From a virus, in the IMG/VR virus record IMGVR_UViG_3300034021_001618, positions 1 to 39,845 of that record: a stretch of 39,845 bases of DNA; one strand, written 5' to 3'. The notes beneath the pieces were generated by a model. It ran no database searches. It had not been told where the DNA came from and was given only the letters and a program-made list of their open reading frames with translations. Made by a program: the position numbers and the translations under genes. Each line of letters opens with the position of its first letter. The first letter of the stretch is position 1. Below are positions 5,710 to 17,171 of the stretch, in pieces.

Positions 5710-8700
5710 TTATCTTCCGAAGATATATCTTAAACCGAGTTGACCTTGCCAAACGTCAAATACAGATGTATTCCACTGATAAGTGTCTCTGATGAGACCT
5801 ACAGTAGTTGTACCATTTGCGTTGAGGATTGGTTGAGTTGACAATCTGTAGACAGGTTCACCAGCTGTGTTAGTTGATGAATAGCTAAGGATTGCAGGGT
5901 TTGTAGCTCTTTGAGATACACCCCAATCGTTGTTTAACATGTTACCAAAGTTCAAGATATCCAATCTGATTTGGAATGTGTTTCTGTGACCTTTGATATC
6001 GATGAAGAAATCTTGTTGAACAGACAAATCAAATCTGTGTAACATTGGAATAGCGAGAGCGTTTCTCTCAGCGTATTGACCTCTTCTTGTAGAAAGATAT
6101 TTGTCTTGGTCGATGTAAGCGTCAAAAGCTGCTTGTTGTTGAGCTTCAGTGAAAGTTACACCGCCTGAAGTGAATTGAGCAAATTTGATGTCCGAACCTT
6201 TGTTTGGAACAAAGATAAGTTCATTGTTATTCACTCTGTCACCGTTTAGGTCACCCGCTACGAAGTAGCTGAATGGGTTACCTTGTTGTCCTACATAACC
6301 TAAAGTTACAGTAGTTGCACCAGCACCTTTCTTTGCACCGTTCTCTAATCTATAACCAAGAAGACCAACAAATCTGTTAGGAATCCAGTTATCAGAGAAA
6401 GCTAAAGGAAGGTCATTGTTTCCGTTGATTGCTCTTGCTGACTGCCAAGAACCAGAAGCAATTGAACCAGCACTCATGAAGTCTTTGGAAAGTGATGTAG
6501 TCCACGCTGCAGAACCCCAAAGACCTTTCTGAATTGGATATTTTAACTCAACAGTTGCTGATGTATTGTAAGCACCATTTCTGTTTGTTAAAACCGCACC
6601 CATAGATACGTTGTCATTTACTCTTACACCAGCATCGTTTCTTGCGAAAACAGGTCTTTTGTCAGGACCTGCGAATACTCCTACAGGAACATCCAAGTTA
6701 GCGTTGTAGTAATGAACAGCGTTCAAAAATCTATTGTACATAAGTTCCACAGTACCTACAAATCCGAATGGTAACTTCTTGTCTGCAGCAAGGTTAGTTT
6801 TCCATACTTGTGGGAATTTGTAGTTGGGGTCAGTGAATGCTAAATCAAAAGTAGAAGGAAGTGTTGGTGTAGAAGGAATGAAGTATTGGTTAGGGTTAGC
6901 TGTGAAACCGTAGTTAGCAGCTGCCGCACCTGATACATCGATAAATCCTGTAAGAACACCATTGTTTCCTACTTGGTTTGAAACGAATACATAAGGAGGT
7001 CTACCTGTGAATACACCGGAACCACCTCTTACTTGTAAATCATTTTTACCTTTGTGATTATAGTTGAAACCAATTCTTGGTTCGAAGAGAACTTGTGTTT
7101 TTGGTAAAACACCTGTGTTGAATTTCTCACCACCAGCGAAAGTCATTGCAGTTACTGCAGGATTTTCTAATGCCGTGTTTTCGAAACCAATTACAGCCGC
7201 TCTCAAACCACCTGTGATTTTCAAATTAGCGTTGTACTGATACTCATCCTGAACATAGAGGTCAAGACGAGATGTTTTCAAAACTTGCATTGGTTCGATT
7301 CCACCAGGTAACGCTGAGTAACGAAGTTGGAATCTTGCAGGAGCAAGAGTTGAAGGTCTTCCACCGTTTGCTAATGATTGATTAGCTGCGGTGTAGAAAT
7401 CAGTCAAAGAATTGAAGATATATACACCGTTTGAAGCGGGGAAGAATAAGTTGTTAGAACGATATTTCTCGAAGTTAACACCAGCCACAATTGTGTGCTT
7501 GTCCATAAATTTGGTCAAGTTGTTAGTGATGTGGAAAGTGTTATAGTCCAACTTGTTACCAGGAGTGAATGGGTCAAATCCTACAGAAGCGTAGGTTGCG
7601 GTACCATTCATGATATCAATAGTTGGAAACATCTGTGAAAGATATCCTCTATTTTCAATCTGCTTGTCATAACCAACAATTAGGTTGTTGTGTAAGGTAT
7701 TAGAAAATTTGCTGTTGAGTTCTAATACTGAAGAACGTGTGTTATCTTGAATGATGTATCCACTGTTCTTAAAACTCATTGCGTTGAACTGAGTAGTTCT
7801 GTTTCCTGCACCTGCAGATTGAGAGTTTGAAATGTTTATCTCAGCTTCTGAATTGTGCCAAACATAACGAGCAGTCAATTTGTGCTTGTCGTTGATGTTC
7901 CAGTCCATTCTCACCAAGAATTTCTCAGAAGTGTTTGAGTTGTTGTACCCTTCCCAAGGACCCGTCTCATAATTGAAATTTGTTCTCATGAAATCAGAAA
8001 GAGTTTTCATATCTGAATACAGAACTCTTGAGATTTGAGAACCAGCTAAAGGTGAACCTTGTGAAATCCAAGTCGTACCAGGTTCAGTTTTTGTAAGGTT
8101 TTCGTAGTTACCAAAAATGAATAATTTGTTTTTGATAATTGGAGCACCTAATCTGAAACCTCTTGTAGTTTCTTCGAATTTCGAAGCGGTTACAGTAGTT
8201 CCTTTAGCGTTGTTACCAACATAACGTTGGTTGTCTCTGTTAAACTGATAATAAGAACCCTCTACTTTGTTGGAACCACTTCTTGTAACAGCGTTGATTC
8301 CAGCACCAACGAAACCACTTTGACGAATGTCAAATGGAGCTACGTTGATTTGTAGTTGGTCAATCGCATCCAAAGAGATTGCAGTTGAACCAGTTCTACC
8401 ACCAGCCTGAGCTGAAGAACCAAGACCGAAACCGTTGTTAAACTGAGAACCGTCAATTGTGAAGTTGTTCAATCTGCTATCAGCAGCTCCGAAAGAACGA
8501 CCGTCACCCATTGGGTTGTACTTGGTGATTCCGTCAATAGTTCTTGCACCAGTAATGGGAACAGAAGTTAGTTCTCTCCTTCCAAATTGCTGAGACGCAC
8601 CGGTTCTACCTGAGCTGAAAATGTTGTTTTTGTTTGAATTTACAACTACTTCAGTAAGGGTTTTAACTTCATTGACCAACACAATTTCCAAGGTAGTTGA

Positions 8701-8997
8701 AATACCAAGATTTGTATTGATGTCTGTAAGCTCCTTCATTTTGTAACCCACATTAGAAACGTGAATTACATAAGGACCACCAGGACGCACAGCAGGAATG
8801 TTGAAAATACCAACTTTGTTTGTGATTGCACGATATTCAGAACCCGTAGGTTGGTGAACAGCATGAACCGACGCTCCCGCTAAAGCATCTCCTTTTTCAT
8901 TTTTCACTACACCAGACAGGGCAGAAGTTGTAATTTGCCCGAAAGATGCGAGAGTCACGAACAAGGATAAAAGTGACATCATGATTTGCTTTTTCAT
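5710..8997 (-). CDS. Oar-like TonB-dependent outer-membrane receptor
   Basis: 1095 aa, full length for the Oar-like family. The start is MKKQIMMSLL (8997), because upstream in-frame codons run through the promoter. Signal peptide to FGQ (about residue 21). Residues about 24-105 form a carboxypeptidase-regulatory-like beta-sandwich (LSGVVKNEKGDALAGASV...NKVGIFNIPAVRPG). A plug domain follows (EVVVNSNK..., NPMGDGRSFGAADSRLNNF, TIDGSQFNN, GAGINAVTRSGSNKVEGS), then a large beta-barrel ending LGLRYIFGR. Such proteins import or bind macromolecules across the outer membrane and are common phage receptors in Bacteroidota. No frameshift or stop is seen. The promoter box and spacer match those of phage genes, so phage control is likely. 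Whether it remodels the host surface or is passenger DNA is open. Confidence 0.88.
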   Translation of the reverse strand: MKKQIMMSLLSLFVTLASFGQITTSALSGVVKNEKGDALAGASVHAVHQPTGSEYRAITNKVGIFNIPAVRPGGPYVIHVSNVGYKMKELTDINTNLGISTTLEIVLVNEVKTLTEVVVNSNKNNIFSSGRTGASQQFGRRELTSVPITGARTIDGITKYNPMGDGRSFGAADSRLNNFTIDGSQFNNGFGLGSSAQAGGRTGSTAISLDAIDQLQINVAPFDIRQSGFVGAGINAVTRSGSNKVEGSYYQFNRDNQRYVGNNAKGTTVTASKFEETTRGFRLGAPIIKNKLFIFGNYENLTKTEPGTTWISQGSPLAGSQISRVLYSDMKTLSDFMRTNFNYETGPWEGYNNSNTSEKFLVRMDWNINDKHKLTARYVWHNSEAEINISNSQSAGAGNRTTQFNAMSFKNSGYIIQDNTRSSVLELNSKFSNTLHNNLIVGYDKQIENRGYLSQMFPTIDIMNGTATYASVGFDPFTPGNKLDYNTFHITNNLTKFMDKHTIVAGVNFEKYRSNNLFFPASNGVYIFNSLTDFYTAANQSLANGGRPSTLAPARFQLRYSALPGGIEPMQVLKTSRLDLYVQDEYQYNANLKITGGLRAAVIGFENTALENPAVTAMTFAGGEKFNTGVLPKTQVLFEPRIGFNYNHKGKNDLQVRGGSGVFTGRPPYVFVSNQVGNNGVLTGFIDVSGAAAANYGFTANPNQYFIPSTPTLPSTFDLAFTDPNYKFPQVWKTNLAADKKLPFGFVGTVELMYNRFLNAVHYYNANLDVPVGVFAGPDKRPVFARNDAGVRVNDNVSMGAVLTNRNGAYNTSATVELKYPIQKGLWGSAAWTTSLSKDFMSAGSIASGSWQSARAINGNNDLPLAFSDNWIPNRFVGLLGYRLENGAKKGAGATTVTLGYVGQQGNPFSYFVAGDLNGDRVNNNELIFVPNKGSDIKFAQFTSGGVTFTEAQQQAAFDAYIDQDKYLSTRRGQYAERNALAIPMLHRFDLSVQQDFFIDIKGHRNTFQIRLDILNFGNMLNNDWGVSQRATNPAILSYSSTNTAGEPVYRLSTQPILNANGTTTVGLIRDTYQWNTSVFDVWQGQLGLRYIFGR

Positions 8998-9018
8998 GTT
9001 TGTTTTGTTTATTGGTTT

Positions 9019-9056
9019 ATAAATAAAAAATCCCGAAGACATGCGCCAACGGGATT
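9019..9056 (-). promoter_or_regulatory. Hairpin plus TATTTAT box upstream of the TonB receptor gene
   Basis: Read on the minus strand: stem AATCCCG...CGGGATT (9056-9029), a T run, then TATTTATAAA (box 9025-9019), then 21 nt to the ATG at 8997. The hairpin with its T run looks like a terminator placed directly before the box. The gene at 9816 has the same arrangement with the same 21-nt spacer. Confidence 0.55.
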
Positions 9057-9369: not shown

Positions 9370-9816
9370 TTAAAGGTGATATTTTAATCCAAATCCTGTA
9401 AGACTTGAATGTTTACCATCTTTAACAGTTCTTAGAATTGATTGTTCTAAGCACCATCTTTTGTTTATCCTATAACCAATGGAAGGAGCATAAGTAAATT
9501 GTCCTTTTTGTCCATTGAAGAAGGTAACACCGCCATCAAGACCGATATGGAGTCCTTTTTTGAGGTGCTTACGGTATCCAACTAAAGCCGGCATTCTAAC
9601 GAAACCTGCTTTATTCTGCATGAAACCAAAAGAGACGTTCCAATTTTTTTTGGAAAAATCTACTTTTTGACCCCAAGCTTTGGAATCCCAATCAACATTT
9701 TTTGCAATCGGTGCCATAGCTGTTGCTCCAACGGAAATGTCCCATCCCCCTTTTTTCTGAGCAAATGTTGCTAATGAGAATACCATAGCAAAAAATAACA
9801 AAATGTGTTTTTTCAT
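9370..9816 (-). CDS. Small exported outer-membrane-type beta-barrel protein
   Basis: 148 aa. Signal peptide MKKHILLFFAMVFSLATFAQ, cleaved after FAQ. The mature part has alternating strands with Gly/aromatic girdles (WDISVGATAM, WNVSFGFMQNKAGF, MPALVGYRKHLKKGLHIGLDG, APSIGYRINKRW, LTGFGLKYHL) and ends in an aromatic-rich strand, as expected for an 8-stranded outer-membrane barrel. The start at 9816 is chosen over an upstream codon because that extension would cover the TATTTAT box. The leader is nearly identical to that of the TonB receptor. Function unknown; the context suggests surface modification. Confidence 0.72.
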   Translation of the reverse strand: MKKHILLFFAMVFSLATFAQKKGGWDISVGATAMAPIAKNVDWDSKAWGQKVDFSKKNWNVSFGFMQNKAGFVRMPALVGYRKHLKKGLHIGLDGGVTFFNGQKGQFTYAPSIGYRINKRWCLEQSILRTVKDGKHSSLTGFGLKYHL

Positions 9817-9837
9817 TTGTTTTTTGTTTATTGATTT

Positions 9838-9883
9838 ATAAATAAAAATCCCATTCACAGACTCTTTCGAGTTGCGGATGGGA
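9838..9883 (-). promoter_or_regulatory. Hairpin plus TATTTAT box upstream of the small outer-membrane gene
   Basis: Stem TCCCAT...ATGGGA (9883-9849), a T run, TATTTATAAA (box 9844-9838), then 21 nt to the ATG at 9816. It is the twin of the element before the TonB receptor gene; the hairpin loops differ while the box and downstream leader are nearly the same. Confidence 0.55.
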
Positions 9884-10319: not shown

Positions 10320-10976
10320 CTATTTTAATTTTGTTATTCCATATACCCAATTTAGGGGTAGAGGTTCTGTTTTTTTGATTTTTTTATTTTCATAACCATT
10401 TGTAATCCATTTTGTACCAAATTGTGAATTTTTATTCCCTTTTTGGCTTATTGAATTTTTTTCACCTATTTTTTTCTTTGTTTCTTCGTTATGTTTTTTT
10501 CCGAGCCAGGAGTAAGAGTCTTGTATTGATTTTAATTTTCCATTTTTATGATTTTTTTCATTTGACGCAATACGGGATAGTGAAATTTTTTTTCTATAAT
10601 TTGGGTCGGATTTCAACATTTCTCTATGTTTTATACCCGCGGCTTTAGAACACTTGTATTGGTGAGTTGGATTATTAAACCCGCCAGTACCACCAGGTTT
10701 CAAATTATAACAATTCGGGTCATTTAGAAAATTCTCGTTTATAATTTCCTTTTCTCTTTTTATCAACTCTTCTCTATTGATACACCATTCGAGAATTTCG
10801 AATTTGAAATTATTCGGACCGTATTTTCTTATTGCAAATCTTAAATTAGTTCCACTCCCTATGTAACCATCGTTCAGGTTTGTTGTTGAATGCATTCCAA
10901 CGTAAAATTTATTATTGAGGAGGTTTGTTGTCTTGTATATAAAATGATATTTTTTTGACTTATTTGAGTTCGACAT
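10320..10976 (-). CDS. GIY-YIG homing endonuclease (Seg-like)
   Basis: 218 aa. The N-terminal GIY-YIG nuclease is recognisable from FIYKTTNLLNNKFYVGMHST and GYIGSGTNLRFAIRKYGPNNF (the first motif is FIY/FYVG rather than GIY/YIG). E73, in the REELIKREKEIINE region, is a candidate metal-binding glutamate. Downstream are NUMOD3-like repeats (HNEETKKKIGEKNS) and a C-terminal TKWITNG motif, both seen in DNA-binding tails of free-standing phage endonucleases. It lies 38 nt from the 3' end of tmRNA. The gene is AT- and Lys/Asn-rich, more so than its neighbours, which fits an invasive element. A TATTTAT box lies 4 nt before the ATG. Confidence 0.85.
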   Translation of the reverse strand: MSNSNKSKKYHFIYKTTNLLNNKFYVGMHSTTNLNDGYIGSGTNLRFAIRKYGPNNFKFEILEWCINREELIKREKEIINENFLNDPNCYNLKPGGTGGFNNPTHQYKCSKAAGIKHREMLKSDPNYRKKISLSRIASNEKNHKNGKLKSIQDSYSWLGKKHNEETKKKIGEKNSISQKGNKNSQFGTKWITNGYENKKIKKTEPLPLNWVYGITKLK

Positions 10977-10987: not shown

Positions 10988-11013
10988 TGTCAAGAACTCA
11001 AAAAAGTCTGCGG

Positions 11014-11403
11014 TGGAGAAGACGGGAGTCGAACCCGTGTCTTGTTCGCGATAACTATAAGTGACTACACGTTTATTACAACATTGTTTCTCAATGTTCC
11101 GAAATATTAGGTTTGATATATGTGAGAAACCTACCTACAAACAACTTGGTCTCAGAATTATTTTAAACGAGCTCTGACCTGTGACCCGTATAATGGACTT
11201 CTGTTCCTAGGTTATATGTCCTAACCGACCCGACGTTGTCAAAACTATCAAGCTTTAACAACAGCTTCCTCAGCGATAAGACCGAGAGCAGCCATTTTAG
11301 CAAAAGTATTGCCAGTTGTGTTTTAAATCAGTTTTTAAGGAGGTAATTTAGCTCCTACGTGCCACCTATACCTATACACGCCAATCGATGCCATTTCTTC
11401 CCC
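11014..11403 (-). ncRNA. ssrA: tmRNA (transfer-messenger RNA) with an extended tag
   Basis: Minus strand. The 5' end GGGGAAG pairs with the 3' CTTCTCC to give a 7-bp acceptor containing the G3-U wobble that marks alanine acceptance by AlaRS. The T arm is ACGGG-TTCGACT-CCCGT, and the discriminator A is followed by CC without a full encoded CCA. The tag frame begins GGC at 11313 (GNTFAKMAA...) and ends ...EEAVVKA with TGA-TAG at 11250-11245, giving 21 codons if the resume codon is GGC. Bacteroidota host tags are short and end in ALAA, so this tag is longer and lacks that end. The roughly 230 nt after the tag are long enough for the usual pseudoknots. A perfect host promoter lies upstream. Role: rescue of stalled ribosomes and tagging of nascent proteins. 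Confidence 0.93.
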
Positions 11404-11423: not shown

Positions 11424-11454
11424 CAAATATAAGAATAAATATTTTAATTCCAAA
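11424..11454 (-). promoter_or_regulatory. Host-type promoter TTTG-N19-TATATTTG of tmRNA
   Basis: Read on the minus strand, TTTG (11454-11451), exactly 19 nt, TATATTTG (11431-11424). The mature tmRNA 5' end is 20 nt further, leaving a short leader for RNase P to remove. Confidence 0.8.
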
Positions 11455-11469: not shown

Positions 11470-12513
11470 ATGGGAAAATTTGATTCTTTTGTTGCTTTAA
11501 AAAATTTTATTCAAGGTAAAATTGATTCTTCAGATTTGAAAAATCTCATACCACAAATTTATAAAGTGGATGTGAATTATGATGATTTGAGTAAAAGTTT
11601 GGTAACATATGAGTTTGAAAATGAATCAGATTTATTGAAAATGATTGATATTTCTGATGATGATATTTGGTTTTATAATAGTATCTCAAATCCATATACA
11701 GGTTATTACATATACGGTCCTGATAACTCTGAAACCGATTTTGAAGAAGGTTATGGTTTATGGGATGAGTTGGATGGTGATAATTGGGAAAAATTTGAAA
11801 CTATTTCAAGATTTGTTATGAAACAACCCTTTTCACAAGACATTGATTTTCTTAGTGTCTTCGCTCACACTTTGCAAAGACTTTTCCCAAAAAATGTTCG
11901 AGCGATGATAAATGATTATTCACAAGAAAGGGATAATCAAATGAAAGATGCTGCACAAAATGTAATTCAAAGAGATTTGGATGATTATTTTTCGCAACTT
12001 GGTATGGAGTATAAAAACGGTTTTTTAAAATTTGAAATAGGTAAAGTATTTGAACAATATGTTTATAGTGGTCAATTGACACTGTCATTCGAAAAAATTT
12101 TGAAAAAATATCTAAAATCAGAATATACGCCTGAAGGTGGGTGGAGTGATAGTACTTGGGAATATCAATCGTCAGATGGTTTTGACAGTGAATACTTCAA
12201 TAGGGAGGTCGAAAAAGAATTAGATTCCATAATTGAAAAAATTATGGAAAATGAAGAGGAGTCAAAAAACTTTATTTCCATGGTTGAAAGAATTGAAAGT
12301 AAATTCAAACAAGGTGTACTGTATGATTTGCCAAAGGATAGGTCTAATAAAGTTAAATTCTCCATCCAAGCCTACGATTATCCAAAACAGGAAGTTATTG
12401 TTAAATTGAGAAAAGATTTGAAGGAAAAGACATTTTCCATGAAAGAACAGAATTTTTATAATTTATTATATCAACCTGAATTATTTAAAATTGGAGAATT
12501 GCACGATTTGTAG
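11470..12513 (+). CDS. Protein of unknown function (347 aa, acidic)
   Basis: The start MGKFDSFVALKNFIQGK (11470) is chosen over an upstream ATG that lies inside the tmRNA gene. The protein is rich in D, E, F, Y and N with no membrane helix and no signature I recognise. The middle (residues about 120-230) is helical with F/Y-rich segments. The region around 220-290 contains long Glu-rich helices (NREVEKELDSIIEKIMENEEE), likely coiled coil. It sits between tmRNA and the M20-type peptidase on the same strand; only 12 nt separate it from the latter. A link with the protein-turnover genes is positional only. Confidence 0.6.
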   Translation: MGKFDSFVALKNFIQGKIDSSDLKNLIPQIYKVDVNYDDLSKSLVTYEFENESDLLKMIDISDDDIWFYNSISNPYTGYYIYGPDNSETDFEEGYGLWDELDGDNWEKFETISRFVMKQPFSQDIDFLSVFAHTLQRLFPKNVRAMINDYSQERDNQMKDAAQNVIQRDLDDYFSQLGMEYKNGFLKFEIGKVFEQYVYSGQLTLSFEKILKKYLKSEYTPEGGWSDSTWEYQSSDGFDSEYFNREVEKELDSIIEKIMENEEESKNFISMVERIESKFKQGVLYDLPKDRSNKVKFSIQAYDYPKQEVIVKLRKDLKEKTFSMKEQNFYNLLYQPELFKIGELHDL

Positions 12514-12525: not shown

Positions 12526-13356
12526 ATGCAAAACGATTTATTATTCCTGAAAGAAGTATTATCAGTTCCTACTGTAACTTATCAAGAAGAATTTATGATA
12601 AGATTCATACTCGATTGGCTAGAAGAAAATAAAATTGAAAATTATGTTGATGAGCGTGGTAACATTTATGCGACCAAAAAAATTTCCGAAGTGGATAATG
12701 ATTTTTATTATCCTTGTGTTGTATCTCATACTGATACTGTTCACTCCATTAGACATTTGATAATTCGAGAAGAGCAGTTACCAAATGCTCAAGGAGAGTT
12801 AAAACTATCCTTAAAGGCTTACGACGTAAACGGTTCTCCTACAGGTATCGGTGGAGATGATAAAGCCGGAGTTTTTGCATGTCTGAAATTATTATCAGAG
12901 TTACCCTATTTGAAAGCTGCTTTCTTCGTGTCAGAAGAAACTGGCTGTCACGGGTCAAGAAATTGTGATATTAAATTTTTCGACAACGTAGGATATGCAA
13001 TTCAATTTGACGCACCCGAGAATTGGATGGTTACTGAAACATGTTCTGGTCAAGTTATGTTTGACCGAAACTCAGAATTTTTCAAAAGTTGTGATGAAGT
13101 GTTGACAGAGAACATGCATAAGGATTACATAGATTATATGGTTCACCCCTATACTGATGTTTATGCATTGAGAAGTAAATTTGATTTTTCTTGTATAAAT
13201 TTTTCGATTGGATATTACGACTATCATTCACCTGATGAATATGTCGTTGTTGAAGATGTTTTCAACGGAATAAAGATGGGAAAACTTATGATTGAGAAAT
13301 TGGGATATAAATTACACTTCAAAAAAGCGAAAGACCACGGAAAATTCTATTTATAA
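12526..13356 (+). CDS. M20-family (PepT-like) metallopeptidase, compact
   Basis: 276 aa. The di-zinc motifs of M20 peptidases are present in order: VVSHTDTVH (H68, D70), GIGGDDKAGV (bridging D111), SEETGCHGS (E137 catalytic, E138 ligand), FDAPE (D162), and a C-terminal HSPDEYV histidine. The family removes N-terminal residues from short peptides in the cytosol. PepT proteins are about 400 aa. Here only about 65 residues separate D162 from the final His, so the usual dimerisation/lid domain seems missing. Next to tmRNA, ClpC and Hsp20 it could recycle peptides from degraded proteins (inference). It converges on the HExxH gene, and the two stop codons share the palindrome TTATAA. Confidence 0.82.
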   Translation: MQNDLLFLKEVLSVPTVTYQEEFMIRFILDWLEENKIENYVDERGNIYATKKISEVDNDFYYPCVVSHTDTVHSIRHLIIREEQLPNAQGELKLSLKAYDVNGSPTGIGGDDKAGVFACLKLLSELPYLKAAFFVSEETGCHGSRNCDIKFFDNVGYAIQFDAPENWMVTETCSGQVMFDRNSEFFKSCDEVLTENMHKDYIDYMVHPYTDVYALRSKFDFSCINFSIGYYDYHSPDEYVVVEDVFNGIKMGKLMIEKLGYKLHFKKAKDHGKFYL

Positions 13357-14007
13357 AAATTTTTCTAATTTTTCTATAAAGGGTTTCACCATAGGGTGGT
13401 CTTGTATATCTGAATATTCCATACCCTTTGATTTCATATGTTTTATGGTGTCAATAATTCTTTGTAAACTTGAACCCACAAATTTTGATGCTTGAGGATA
13501 TTGTTGTATAAATTCCGACAATTTGAATATTTTTTTTGATTCTTCAATTGGCATTTTCAAACTGAAAACTAATCTTCCTAACATATTTTTCGCATATTGG
13601 TCCGCATCTAACTCCATCTCCCAATATTGTTGATAAATTTTCTCGAAATCTTCCAAATCGTAATCTGTTAGAGGATTGGGCATTTTTATTTCTGAAATTT
13701 GTTGTTCGTGTCTTATTTCATGAAATAAAGTATAAAGAAAATCCCCCAAGGTAGCCATTTGACTTGGAGCACAAATTATAACTTGGTCTCTTGTTCTCAC
13801 TCCTGCATATGATGGACAAGCATTTAAAAACTTCACATTGTAATTTGATTTTTCTATAAAATTTTTAACAAAACTTCTAATCATCGGTATCCTGTCTAAA
13901 TAATTTTTTGGAAAAATAGATTTGAAATTTTCCAAAACTTTGTCAAGATTTGAAGTGGGGTTTTCTGAGTCAGACTCTCTTAAAATTTTTCTTATCAATT
14001 CACGCAT
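13351..14007 (-). CDS. HExxH zinc metallopeptidase-like protein
   Basis: 218 aa. F-H96-E97-I-R-H100 is a zincin HExxH motif, and WEMELDADQYA (E130/E132, about 30 residues later) resembles the ExxAD third-ligand helix of gluzincins such as ImmA/IrrE-like and related peptidases. No signal peptide is visible, so action in the cytosol or in the virion is expected. The start at 14007 (MRELIRKILRESDSEN) is preferred over an upstream ATG because a TATTTAT box lies exactly 5 nt before it. The first 11 residues form a basic amphipathic helix ending in L-R-E, which resembles a T4 capsid-targeting sequence. Substrate unknown. Confidence 0.7.
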   Translation of the reverse strand: MRELIRKILRESDSENPTSNLDKVLENFKSIFPKNYLDRIPMIRSFVKNFIEKSNYNVKFLNACPSYAGVRTRDQVIICAPSQMATLGDFLYTLFHEIRHEQQISEIKMPNPLTDYDLEDFEKIYQQYWEMELDADQYAKNMLGRLVFSLKMPIEESKKIFKLSEFIQQYPQASKFVGSSLQRIIDTIKHMKSKGMEYSDIQDHPMVKPFIEKLEKFL

Positions 14008-14012
14008 TTCAT

Positions 14013-14019
14013 ATAAATA
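14013..14019 (-). promoter_or_regulatory. TATTTAT box 5 nt before the ATG at 14007
   Basis: ATAAATA on the plus strand. It follows the A/T-rich end of the clpC-like gene, with TATTTAT-ATGAA-ATG toward the peptidase gene. Confidence 0.5.
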
Positions 14020-14032
14020 CAAAAAAAGGGAC

Positions 14033-16042
14033 TTATCGTCCCTTTTTTGTTATTTTTATTTCTTCTTTCTCAACTTTCAAATGATAGGTTTTCCCTTCGA
14101 TGAATTTTCCTGTGAGAACTTCCTCAGAAATTAAATCTTCAACTTTGTCTTGAATTGCTCTTTTCAAGGGTCTTGCTCCATACAATTCGTCATATCCTAT
14201 TTTTGAAAGGTATTCAATAAGACTATCATCGTATGTGACAGTATATTTTAATTCAGAAAGCCTGTTAGAAAGTTTTTTCAATTCAATCTCCGTGATTTTT
14301 TTAATATCGTCTTTTGATAAAGAATTGAAAACAATCGTATCATCAATCCTATTCAAGAACTCAGGAGAAAAGAAATTTTTCATTTCTTTCATGAGAACCT
14401 GTTTTCTGGCTTCCTCATTTGAATAGGAATTAGAGAAACCAATCCCTGTACCGAAATCTTGTAATTTTTTGACTCCTAAGTTTGTTGTCAAAATAATCAA
14501 AGTATTTTTAAAATTGATTTTTCTACCGAGAGAATCTGTCACGTGTCCTTCATCAAGAATTTGTAACAAGATTGTGAAAACGTCTTTATGTGCTTTTTCT
14601 ACCTCGTCGAAAAGGATAACTGAGTAAGGTTTGTTTTTAACCTTTTCAGTTAGTTGTCCCCCTTCATCGTATCCGACATAACCAGGAGGGGCACCTACTA
14701 ATTTGGATACAGTGTGTTTTTCTTGGTATTCACTCATGTCAACTCTGATAAGAGCTTCTTCTGAACCAAACATCTCTTTCGCAAGTTGTTTTGCCAAGTG
14801 TGTTTTACCGACGCCAGTAGAACCGAGAAAAATAAATGAACCGATTGGCCTGTTGGGGTCTTTGATACCCAAGCGGTTTCTTTTAATTGATTTAACCACT
14901 TTGATTACGGCCGAATCTTGTCCAATAACCTTACCTGTTAGCTCCTTATCCAAGTTTATCAGAGATTTTGTATCATCAACACTCATTTTGTTTACAGGAA
15001 TTTTGGTCATATTTGAAACAACATCATAAACCATGTTCAACGTGATTTCTTGTTTTTGTTTCTCCATTTCCTCATCAAATTTCTTTTTCTCCGAATCTAA
15101 TTTATCCAACAACTTTTTTTCTCTATCTCGTAATTGCGCCGCTTGTTCGTAATTCTGTTTTTTTACAACATCGATTTTTTGTTGTTTGATTTCCGCAGCC
15201 TTTTTTTTGAGTTCCTCAATAACCTCGGGAATTTTCACTTCTGTTTGCATACGTGCACCAACCTCATCTAAAATGTCAAATGCTTTGTCAGGAAATTCTC
15301 GGTCTGTAATATAACGTTCAGCAAGTTTGACACAAACCTCAATGACCTCATCAGAGTACCTGACCTTGTGATAAGATTCATATTTGGGACGAATGTTCTT
15401 CAGAATTTCTATAGTTTCAGCAACAGATGAAGCCTCAACAATAATTTTTTGGAATCGTCTTTCAAGAGCACCATCCTTTTCAATGTTTTTTCTGAACTCA
15501 TCTAAAGTTGTGGCCCCAATAATTTGAATCTCACCACGTGATAAAGCGGGTTTGAAAATATTGGAACCATCCATAGAACCGGCAGAATTACCCGAACCAA
15601 CCAAAGTGTGCACCTCGTCAATAAAAACTATAATGTTTGGGTTTGTCTGTAATTCTTCAATAATAACTTTCATCCTCTCTTCAAATTGTCCTCTATATTT
15701 TGTTCCCGCCACAACAGAGGTCAGGTCTAAGTTTACAATTCTTTTATCAATAAGATTTTTGGGACATTCACCGCTTACAATTTTCATTGCTAAACCCTCT
15801 ACAATTGCGGTTTTACCACATCCCGGTTCTCCTAAGATAATTGGATTGTTTTTCTTGCGTCTTGATAGGATTTGTGCAATCCTCAAAATTTCTCGGTCTC
15901 TACCAATTACAGGGTCTAATTTACCTTCGGACGCAAGTTTATTTAAATCTCTACTGAAGTTGTCCAAAACAGGAGTAGAACTGTCGGAAGTCTTTTGCTT
16001 CCTACTTGTTTTCATGTCGTCATCATCCATTAGTTCATTCAT
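14033..16042 (-). CDS. ClpC/ClpA-like AAA+ unfoldase lacking the N-domain
   Basis: 669 aa against about 810 for ClpC: the Clp_N adaptor domain is absent and the protein starts close to the first AAA+ module. D1 has Walker A GEPGCGKT (71-78) and Walker B IIVFIDE (about 137-143). A short middle region has a UVR-like helix (NYEQAAQLRDREKKLL, about 298-312). D2 has Walker A GSTGVGKT (407-414), pore-loop segment GAPPGYVGYDEGG, Walker B VILFDE (475-480) and sensor region FLNRIDD. GTGIGFSNS (about 531-539) lies where ClpA/ClpC carry the IGL/VGF loop that docks ClpP. It probably unfolds substrates for host ClpP; no ClpP gene is in the window. Substrate choice would have to work without the normal N-domain. 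Confidence 0.92.
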   Translation of the reverse strand: MNELMDDDDMKTSRKQKTSDSSTPVLDNFSRDLNKLASEGKLDPVIGRDREILRIAQILSRRKKNNPIILGEPGCGKTAIVEGLAMKIVSGECPKNLIDKRIVNLDLTSVVAGTKYRGQFEERMKVIIEELQTNPNIIVFIDEVHTLVGSGNSAGSMDGSNIFKPALSRGEIQIIGATTLDEFRKNIEKDGALERRFQKIIVEASSVAETIEILKNIRPKYESYHKVRYSDEVIEVCVKLAERYITDREFPDKAFDILDEVGARMQTEVKIPEVIEELKKKAAEIKQQKIDVVKKQNYEQAAQLRDREKKLLDKLDSEKKKFDEEMEKQKQEITLNMVYDVVSNMTKIPVNKMSVDDTKSLINLDKELTGKVIGQDSAVIKVVKSIKRNRLGIKDPNRPIGSFIFLGSTGVGKTHLAKQLAKEMFGSEEALIRVDMSEYQEKHTVSKLVGAPPGYVGYDEGGQLTEKVKNKPYSVILFDEVEKAHKDVFTILLQILDEGHVTDSLGRKINFKNTLIILTTNLGVKKLQDFGTGIGFSNSYSNEEARKQVLMKEMKNFFSPEFLNRIDDTIVFNSLSKDDIKKITEIELKKLSNRLSELKYTVTYDDSLIEYLSKIGYDELYGARPLKRAIQDKVEDLISEEVLTGKFIEGKTYHLKVEKEEIKITKKGR

Positions 16043-16207: not shown

Positions 16208-16603
16208 ATGATTTTATCTAACAACGAATTGAACAGAATTTTCGACGACATTTTCAATGGGACGTCCAAACCTTATTTCAAAACCTCAGTAATTTCAAAA
16301 AATCCTGATGAGGAGAATTATGAAATAAATCAAACAAAAGATGGTGCATATCTTTTCTTTGAGGTTCCTGGTTTTAATAAATCAAATCTCAAAGTAGAAA
16401 TGGAAGACGGAATTCTAATCATTCAAGGAAAAAGAATTTATAAATTGAATGGTGAAGAAAAAACAAAATCTGTATCAAAAGAATTCAAAATTGGAAAGGA
16501 ATATAATTCATCTGAGATTGAGGCAACAATAGAAGATGGTCTACTAACGGTATTCGTACCTAATTACAAAAAACAAGAAAAAAAGAGAATCAATCTCCTG
16601 TGA
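16208..16603 (+). CDS. Hsp20-family small heat-shock protein
   Basis: 131 aa. The alpha-crystallin domain spans residues about 38-125: AYLFFEVPGFNKSNLKVEMEDGILIIQGKR, then ATIEDGLLTVFVPNYKK with the conserved A-x-x-x-[DE]-G-[LV]-L-x-[VI]-x-x-P motif. The C-terminus KKRINLL provides an I-x-L-like anchor used for oligomerisation. Small Hsps hold unfolding proteins without ATP; T4-type cyanophages often carry one. It is divergent from clpC, consistent with a shared chaperone/proteolysis role. It ends at a bidirectional terminator. Confidence 0.9.
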   Translation: MILSNNELNRIFDDIFNGTSKPYFKTSVISKNPDEENYEINQTKDGAYLFFEVPGFNKSNLKVEMEDGILIIQGKRIYKLNGEEKTKSVSKEFKIGKEYNSSEIEATIEDGLLTVFVPNYKKQEKKRINLL

Positions 16604-16607
16604 TAAA

Positions 16608-16637
16608 AAAACCCTCAACTTAGTTGGGGGTTTTTTC
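16608..16637. terminator. Bidirectional terminator
   Basis: AACCCTCAAC-TTA-GTTGGGGGTT stem with A run before and T run after. It serves hsp20 (+) and the oxygenase gene (-), whose stop codon lies inside the stem. Confidence 0.85.
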
Positions 16638-17171
16638 ACACCAATCTATTATAAGATGAACTCTATCTTCATCACCATCATTCACCACAGAATGTGATAA
16701 TTTATCATTATTCATTTCCCAAATTTCACCGACTTTCATATTGATGGATTCTTCACCTACATTGAAAATACATTTTTCATTTGTAATTATTGGTATGTGT
16801 ATCCTTTTAGAAAATTTAAAAGTATTGTTTGCACTGTCAACGTGGGTTGGTATAATACTTTTTTTGTATAGTTTGACTAAAATAGCTCTGAGTAAATAAC
16901 CTGAACCGCCGGTTTGTTTTTTTATAATTTCACAAATATTATTTAAATCCTCTTCGAAGAAGGTATAGTTTTTAGTAAACACTGGATTAAAGTTGGTAGA
17001 AAAAAAATCATTGTCATAAACTATTTTAATTGTTTGTGTATTGACCATATCAGTACACGCTTTTTGTCTCAAGGTAAATTCGTTCCAATCTACTTTTTCA
17101 CTATTTAATATCGTCAGAATATTCGATATGTCATAATGTCCATAATATTTGAAAGATTCATTTACATTCAT
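16620..17171 (-). CDS. Aspartyl/asparaginyl beta-hydroxylase-like 2OG-Fe(II) oxygenase
   Basis: 183 aa. The C-terminal cupin fold shows THVDSAN (H110, D112), a strand FSKRIHIPIITNEK, GEIWEMNN, LSHSVVNDG (H160) and DRVHLIIDW (R170, a 2-oxoglutarate contact). This matches the Asp_Arg_Hydrox family pattern of H-x-D...H with a conserved N-N and R. These enzymes hydroxylate peptide side chains, and phage members are known but of unclear target. The N-terminal 90 residues are less conserved. No membrane segment. It stands alone on its strand. Confidence 0.78.
   Translation of the reverse strand: MNVNESFKYYGHYDISNILTILNSEKVDWNEFTLRQKACTDMVNTQTIKIVYDNDFFSTNFNPVFTKNYTFFEEDLNNICEIIKKQTGGSGYLLRAILVKLYKKSIIPTHVDSANNTFKFSKRIHIPIITNEKCIFNVGEESINMKVGEIWEMNNDKLSHSVVNDGDEDRVHLIIDWCEKTPN

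Follow-up and report, generated by a model that had tools for sequence, protein, structure and literature searches.

Phage-encoded tmRNAs are already known (PMC4131195; PMC7162821; PMC9004378). Proposed roles are the maintenance of hijacked machinery and the recycling of host amino acids (PMC9004378). Huge phages carrying both tmRNA and SmpB were reported by Al-Shayeb et al. 2020 (PMC7162821); the part of that report considered here analyses neither the tag sequence nor a linked Clp machine. Long phage tags without an LAA end are likewise already known, from Bxz1-type mycobacteriophages and from Bacillus phage G. The tag of the Bxz1-type phage Momo, re-read here from the sequence, is ATDTDATVTDAEIEAFFAEEAAALV (25 residues). 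These mycobacteriophages resemble the phages described below in the length of the tag, its lack of LAA and a tRNA-rich genome, but their tag has no sequence similarity to the present one and their hosts belong to another phylum. Bacillus phage G is likewise a giant phage with its own tmRNA, whose tag AKLNITNNELQVA is not of the LAA type and ends VA, and it has its own adjacent genes for ClpP and an unfoldase. It differs in that the tag has 13 residues, the unfoldase has 449 residues, and about 220 kb separate the unfoldase and ClpP genes from the tmRNA. Jumbo phages linked to Bacteroidota, moraphages among them (PMC12619734), are similar by description only: their predicted hosts are Bacteroidota, nearly all encode a ClpA-type subunit, and tmRNA is not mentioned in that paper. 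A search of the literature outside subscription journals and supplements found no description of the tag family reported here or of its link to ClpC and ClpP.

A complete tmRNA gene with a 21-codon tag

The window analysed is the whole of the linear IMG/VR phage contig IMGVR_UViG_3300034021_001618 (39,845 bp), on which terminase, portal and major head protein genes are present. Features of the tmRNA locus are listed in Table 1. A reading made from the sequence alone (the sequence-only reading) had placed the tmRNA at 11014-11403. The 11403 end was retained; the other end was 2-3 bases short, as ARAGORN places the gene at 11012-11403 (-) and the full RF00023 model (positions 1-374) aligned at 11011-11403 with 91 bits and an E-value of 2.8e-34 (cut-off 47 bits). 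The acceptor stem, GGGGAAG/CUUCUCC, retains the G3-U70 pair used for alanine charging, the T arm is standard and intact in sequence, and the 3' end reads ACCG, so that CCA is only partly encoded. Upstream, the -33 TTG lies at 11453-11451 and the -7 element TATATTTG at 11431-11424. A -7 element of the form TAnnTTTG was found upstream of the tmRNA in 79 of 100 distinct relatives, vs 4.9 in shuffled sequence. The earlier view that the preserved acceptor with its G3-U pair, T arm and promoter make the RNA probably functional is supported. The host phylum is probably Bacteroidota, as judged from the promoter type, the start of the tag and an outer-membrane receptor-like gene.

Table 1. Features of the tmRNA locus in the 39,845-bp window
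Feature	Position	Strand	Basis
H5-like hairpin around the tag stop, 13-pair stem, 4-base loop UGAU	11234..11263	(-)	Folding
Tandem tag stops, UGA 11250-11248 and UAG 11247-11245, at the loop of the H5-like hairpin	11245..11250	(-)	ARAGORN; sequence
Tag reading frame, GNTFAKMAALGLIAEEAVVKA, 21 codons	11251..11313	(-)	ARAGORN; sequence; conserved frame, apparently under purifying selection
tmRNA gene (ssrA), one-piece, complete	11011..11403	(-)	ARAGORN; Rfam RF00023; phage tmRNA profile
Bacteroidota-type promoter, TTG - 19 nt - TATATTTG	11424..11453	(-)	Sequence; TAnnTTTG in relatives
Fast-evolving protein, divergent from the tmRNA	11470..12513	(+)	Homologues in 114 loci
M20-like metallo-aminopeptidase, between clpC and tmRNA	12526..13356	(+)	PF01546 below cut-off; phrog_4191
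Putative zinc metallopeptidase (HEIRH), between clpC and tmRNA	13351..14022	(-)	HExxH motif
ClpC-like AAA+ unfoldase, 669 aa, without N-domain, IGF loop for ClpP	14033..16042	(-)	Pfam; PDB match; loop motif
Hsp20-type small heat-shock protein adjoining clpC	16208..16603	(+)	PF00011; in 29 tmRNA loci

The tag was read by ARAGORN as GNTFAKMAALGLIAEEAVVKA followed by two stops. Its codons are GGC AAU ACU UUU GCU AAA AUG GCU GCU CUC GGU CUU AUC GCU GAG GAA GCU GUU GUU AAA GCU UGA UAG, which confirms the earlier description of 12 further codons after GNTFAKMAA and then UGA-UAG. Canonical ssrA degrons have about 8-15 residues and an LAA-type end; the window tag has 21 and ends VKA. The two other frames of the window tmRNA contain no tag of this kind, and in the covariance-model check, with RF00023 aligned over its full length, no model placed a tag of normal, short length in a different frame. 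The final 13 bases of the tag frame form pairs with bases 3' of the stop codons, so the stops sit at a hairpin loop in the place of H5. This stem is strong in the subclade of the window (also in L025). Other subclades show it weakly or do not show it as a simple stem, and when the stop region was folded as a consensus across the family, most subclades gave little support for an H5 stem.

Conservation of the tag among related phages

Relatives were collected by two scans of viral contigs. A first scan with the ClpC-like protein of the window returned 80 loci, and a profile built from the first tmRNAs detected a tmRNA in 72 of 91 sequences. A second scan searched with only the tag, written as a degenerate DNA pattern, and gave at least 120 rows; among the matches listed, all 76 new viral loci were true tmRNAs. 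The merged set comprised at least 103 distinct full-length tmRNAs from IMG/VR contigs, with some loci representing one contig twice. The RF00023 cut-off was passed by 18 of the 18 short relative loci checked with Rfam.

Among the matches listed, the 103 distinct tmRNAs encode 71 different tags, 91 of the tmRNAs having a tag of 21 residues and 12 one of 22. The consensus is GN[TV][FLI][ANDS]K[ML][AES][AT][LIV]GL[ITVL]RE, followed by 2-3 free residues and V-x-V-A or similar. G11 and L12 are invariant across 73 distinct 21-codon tags. In none of the 103 does the tag end LAA or MAA, and in none does a stop follow the MAA position; this supports the extended tag without an LAA/MAA end that was noted before in a single phage. 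One consensus over 103 relatives rules out a one-off read-through as the source of the long tag. The last residue is alanine in 94 of the 103 (VA in 54, AA in 16); a minority of the tags close with VTI or TVS instead. Across the wider family of phages the residues at the MAA positions have drifted, to MET, LSA or MAT, and so have ceased to mark the end of the tag.

The frame carries the marks of a coding sequence. Variation is highest at third codon positions and lowest at second positions (column-entropy permutation, p 5e-5). Over close pairs, which are the fair measure because dS is high over all pairs, dN/dS was 0.38 for the tag and 0.42 for codons 10-21 alone, compared with 0.64 and 1.83 for the two shifted frames. 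In a structured RNA the third positions do not evolve neutrally, and the values are therefore indicative; their direction and frame specificity are clear. They indicate that the tag frame is probably under purifying selection along its whole length.

Comparison with host tags

Bacteroidota genomes were drawn across the phylum and their tmRNA tags were read by ARAGORN (69 loci). All 69 tags have 9-10 residues and end LAA or MAA. The tag GNTQYAMAA of a Spirosoma MAG, with its stop, aligns base by base with the phage GNTFAKMAA, the stop having been lost in the phage; the proposed resemblance of the phage tag start to a Bacteroidota tag is thereby upheld. Host tmRNAs (GNTQYAMAA, GENNYALAA) share with the phage the RNA class and the G-N/E-T start, but their tags stop after LAA/MAA, whereas the phage tag runs 12 codons further to a V-x-V-A-like end. 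A scan of 84,980 prokaryote genomes with the tag pattern, which covers only subfamilies with E at position 15, gave 13 matches, none in a tmRNA and none a true copy. A host origin of the long tag was rejected, given its absence from the 69 Bacteroidota tags and the lack of a tmRNA among these 13 matches.

In one Bacteroidota genome (G106) a second tmRNA was observed (L140, 8762-9173); it looks decayed (49 bits, mismatched acceptor) and still encodes GENNYALAA.

The Clp unfoldase, ClpP and other genes around the tmRNA

The best PDB match of the 669-residue unfoldase is ClpC, aligned from ClpC residue 144 on. The protein consists of two AAA+ modules and a middle domain, with Walker, pore-loop and Arg-finger motifs kept. 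About 40 residues precede D1 and no Clp_N match was found in it with Pfam; because this N-terminal domain is missing, the protein is called ClpC-like. The ClpP-binding loop [IVL]GF is present in all 96 distinct copies (IGF 62, VGF 33, LGF 1), and a single Clp unfoldase was present in every one of the 15 records checked.

The association of this unfoldase with the tmRNA, pointed out earlier for the window, recurs consistently. Among the matches listed, clpC was present in 24 of 24 loci found by the tag that had at least 6 kb upstream; conversely, a tmRNA was present in 46 of 46 loci found by clp with at least 7 kb downstream. The two genes lie on the same strand in 118/118 loci, 2.0-5.7 kb apart. 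These loci were collected through their close similarity to clpC or to the tag (63-100% identity for most ClpC proteins), a sampling that favours close relatives, and much of the linkage could stem from shared descent. Among annotated phages, the closest clp genes (57% protein identity) belong to two phages of 634-642 kb, in which no tmRNA over the cut-off was found.

ClpP (PF00574) was found in 20 of 30 related records, including 11 of the 11 of at least 165 kb, and not seen in the other 10, many of which are fragments. It is also present in an 80.6-kb contig (L004) whose tmRNA matches that of the window over the first 200 bases, as far as read. The Ser, His and Asp motifs are present in the eight ClpPs read. 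No ClpP was seen in the 39,845-bp window; in a relative (L016/G121) the gene lies about 22 kb beyond the tmRNA and at that distance would fall outside the window fragment. A phage SmpB was found in 3 of the 30 related records, many of them fragments, and a profile built from these located the gene next to the tmRNA in three loci; the idea that SmpB is a universal partner in these phages was discarded on the count of 3 in 30.

Two of the genes between clpC and the tmRNA encode probable peptidases. The putative zinc metallopeptidase has no Pfam match; HExxH is kept in 31 of 31 homologues checked, and the protein was found in 52 tmRNA-bearing loci. The M20-like protein matched the phrog_4191 peptidase with an E-value of 3.6e-34 and was found in 129 loci, with the motifs HTD (99/99), DDK (96/99) and EExG (99/99). 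The fast-evolving protein has a confident fold prediction (pLDDT 87), which had no match at E 0.001 in PDB or among viral models, and a role as degron adaptor is not claimed for it.

Fate of the tagged proteins

The best explanation, to which we give about an even chance, is that the phage tmRNA rescues ribosomes and tags chains for degradation by a phage ClpC-ClpP machine. The tmRNA would be charged with alanine via the G3-U pair and helped by SmpB, usually that of the host and in a few phages their own. During infection it would release ribosomes that have stalled on broken mRNA, adding a phage-specific tag of 21-22 residues. The degron would comprise the middle of the tag, K-M/L-x-x-L-G-L-x-R-E, together with the V-x-V-A end, and would be read directly by the ClpC-like unfoldase, which would pass the chain on to ClpP, made by the phage itself if it has the gene. 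The fragments may then be cut down to amino acids by the M20 and zinc peptidases. The steps that we infer are expression, charging, recognition by ClpC, degradation and recycling. The N-domain of ClpC and ClpA is the docking place of MecA- or ClpS-type adaptors. An unfoldase without it would need signals that it can grip directly, and a conserved tag from a linked gene may be such a signal. The gene context favours the routing of tagged proteins to the phage unfoldase. Phage G also pairs its own tmRNA and a VA-ending tag with ClpP and unfoldase genes and is unrelated in tag and host; this one case argues for probable convergence and against an accident in one lineage. In a stricter form, put forward tentatively, the route would be private and orthogonal: the host would read the phage degron poorly, and phage ClpC-ClpP with the linked peptidases would read it and break stalled chains down to amino acids under phage control. 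Most tags carry alanine after small hydrophobic residues, and host ClpX or ClpC might also read them.

That last point bears on a possible, though unlikely, reading in which trans-translation is ordinary: degradation is left to host ClpXP, ClpCP or Tsp, the tmRNA mainly tops up rescue, and ClpC is a general chaperone. The alanine ends, often VA or AA, agree with it, and so does the scarcity of phage SmpB, which implies that host factors are used anyway. Nor are phage tmRNAs a rarity (402 of 18,146 phage genomes; PMC9004378), and ClpC-like proteins in phages without a recognised tmRNA imply that the unfoldase has other work. What ordinary trans-translation leaves unexplained is a 12-codon extension apparently selected as protein, the loss of LAA/MAA from every phage tag among the matches listed, and the tight linkage to clpC. 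The sequence-only reading had also suggested that the changed end could spare tagged proteins from host proteases, so that near-complete phage proteins survive. The missing LAA/MAA ends and the tags ending VTI or TVS would suit such sparing; the predominance of small hydrophobic residues plus alanine at the end speaks against it, as do the phages' own unfoldase and ClpP, which point to degradation. Engineered ssrA reporters with LVA or AAV ends are still degraded, at differing rates. The suggestion fared poorly on these counts and is considered distinctly improbable.

A tag with no part in degradation, serving to bind a phage partner, to localise proteins or to hold chains with Hsp20 and ClpC for refolding, is rated lower again, as very doubtful: the conserved G-L and K residues in the middle of the tag exceed the needs of a terminal degron and Hsp20 adjoins clpC in 29 loci, but every phage ClpC read has the ClpP-binding loop and the larger contigs encode ClpP. 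An accidental long frame in a misread or decayed tmRNA, with the true tag shorter or in another frame, was conceivable while one phage sequence was at hand, and ARAGORN does report shorter frames in three relatives (L015, L016, L021). Alignment restores the same start and a 21-residue frame in these three, all 18 loci checked with Rfam exceed the cut-off, and length, consensus and coding signature are conserved in the 103 sequences among the matches listed. A long frame kept by 103 distinct relatives is not chance, and the comparative data refute this explanation, leaving it hardly any probability.

With degradation by phage ClpC-ClpP as the preferred reading, giant phages may run a private line of quality control and recycling inside the cell. 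In a large phage family the tag is in its own right a protein sequence that is conserved and specific to the phages, unlike the host tags sampled; a Clp unfoldase and, in larger contigs, ClpP are genetically linked to it. A simple reporter would be enough to test directly who reads the tag. Reading by the phage machine and not by the host would make tag and machine a natural orthogonal degron-protease pair, which would also be a tool.

Other elements near the locus

Several further genes flank the locus in the window. A GIY-YIG homing-type endonuclease (10320-10976, -) lies directly 3' of the tmRNA and was found in only 8 related loci; an aspartyl/asparaginyl beta-hydroxylase-like protein (16620-17171, -) was found in only 9. 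A protein of 1110 residues (5710-9042, -) resembles a TonB-dependent outer-membrane receptor by sequence, has a signal peptide and has homologues in 21 related loci. The small outer-membrane-like protein at 9370-9858 (-) has a leader similar to that of the 1110-residue protein and homologues in 11 related loci. Neither of these two matched PHROGs or NCBIfam.

The huge phage LR756508 (L209) has a tmRNA at 1501-1947; read after ACT, it is best interpreted as encoding a tag of 36 codons, GVNNADYESAGFTAEDFAQMDGESLYHGSERKPAAV (GVNNADYES...KPAAV). This plausible tag was left out of the evidence because it is a single sequence and ARAGORN picks another frame.

GOLLD RNA is absent from the window. It was found convergent to the tmRNA, 0.5-2 kb downstream, in 7 of 18 relatives scanned (L252, L234, L229, L263, L231, L290 and L182). 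In the phages LR756502 and LR745206 (634-642 kb) it also lies close to clpC.
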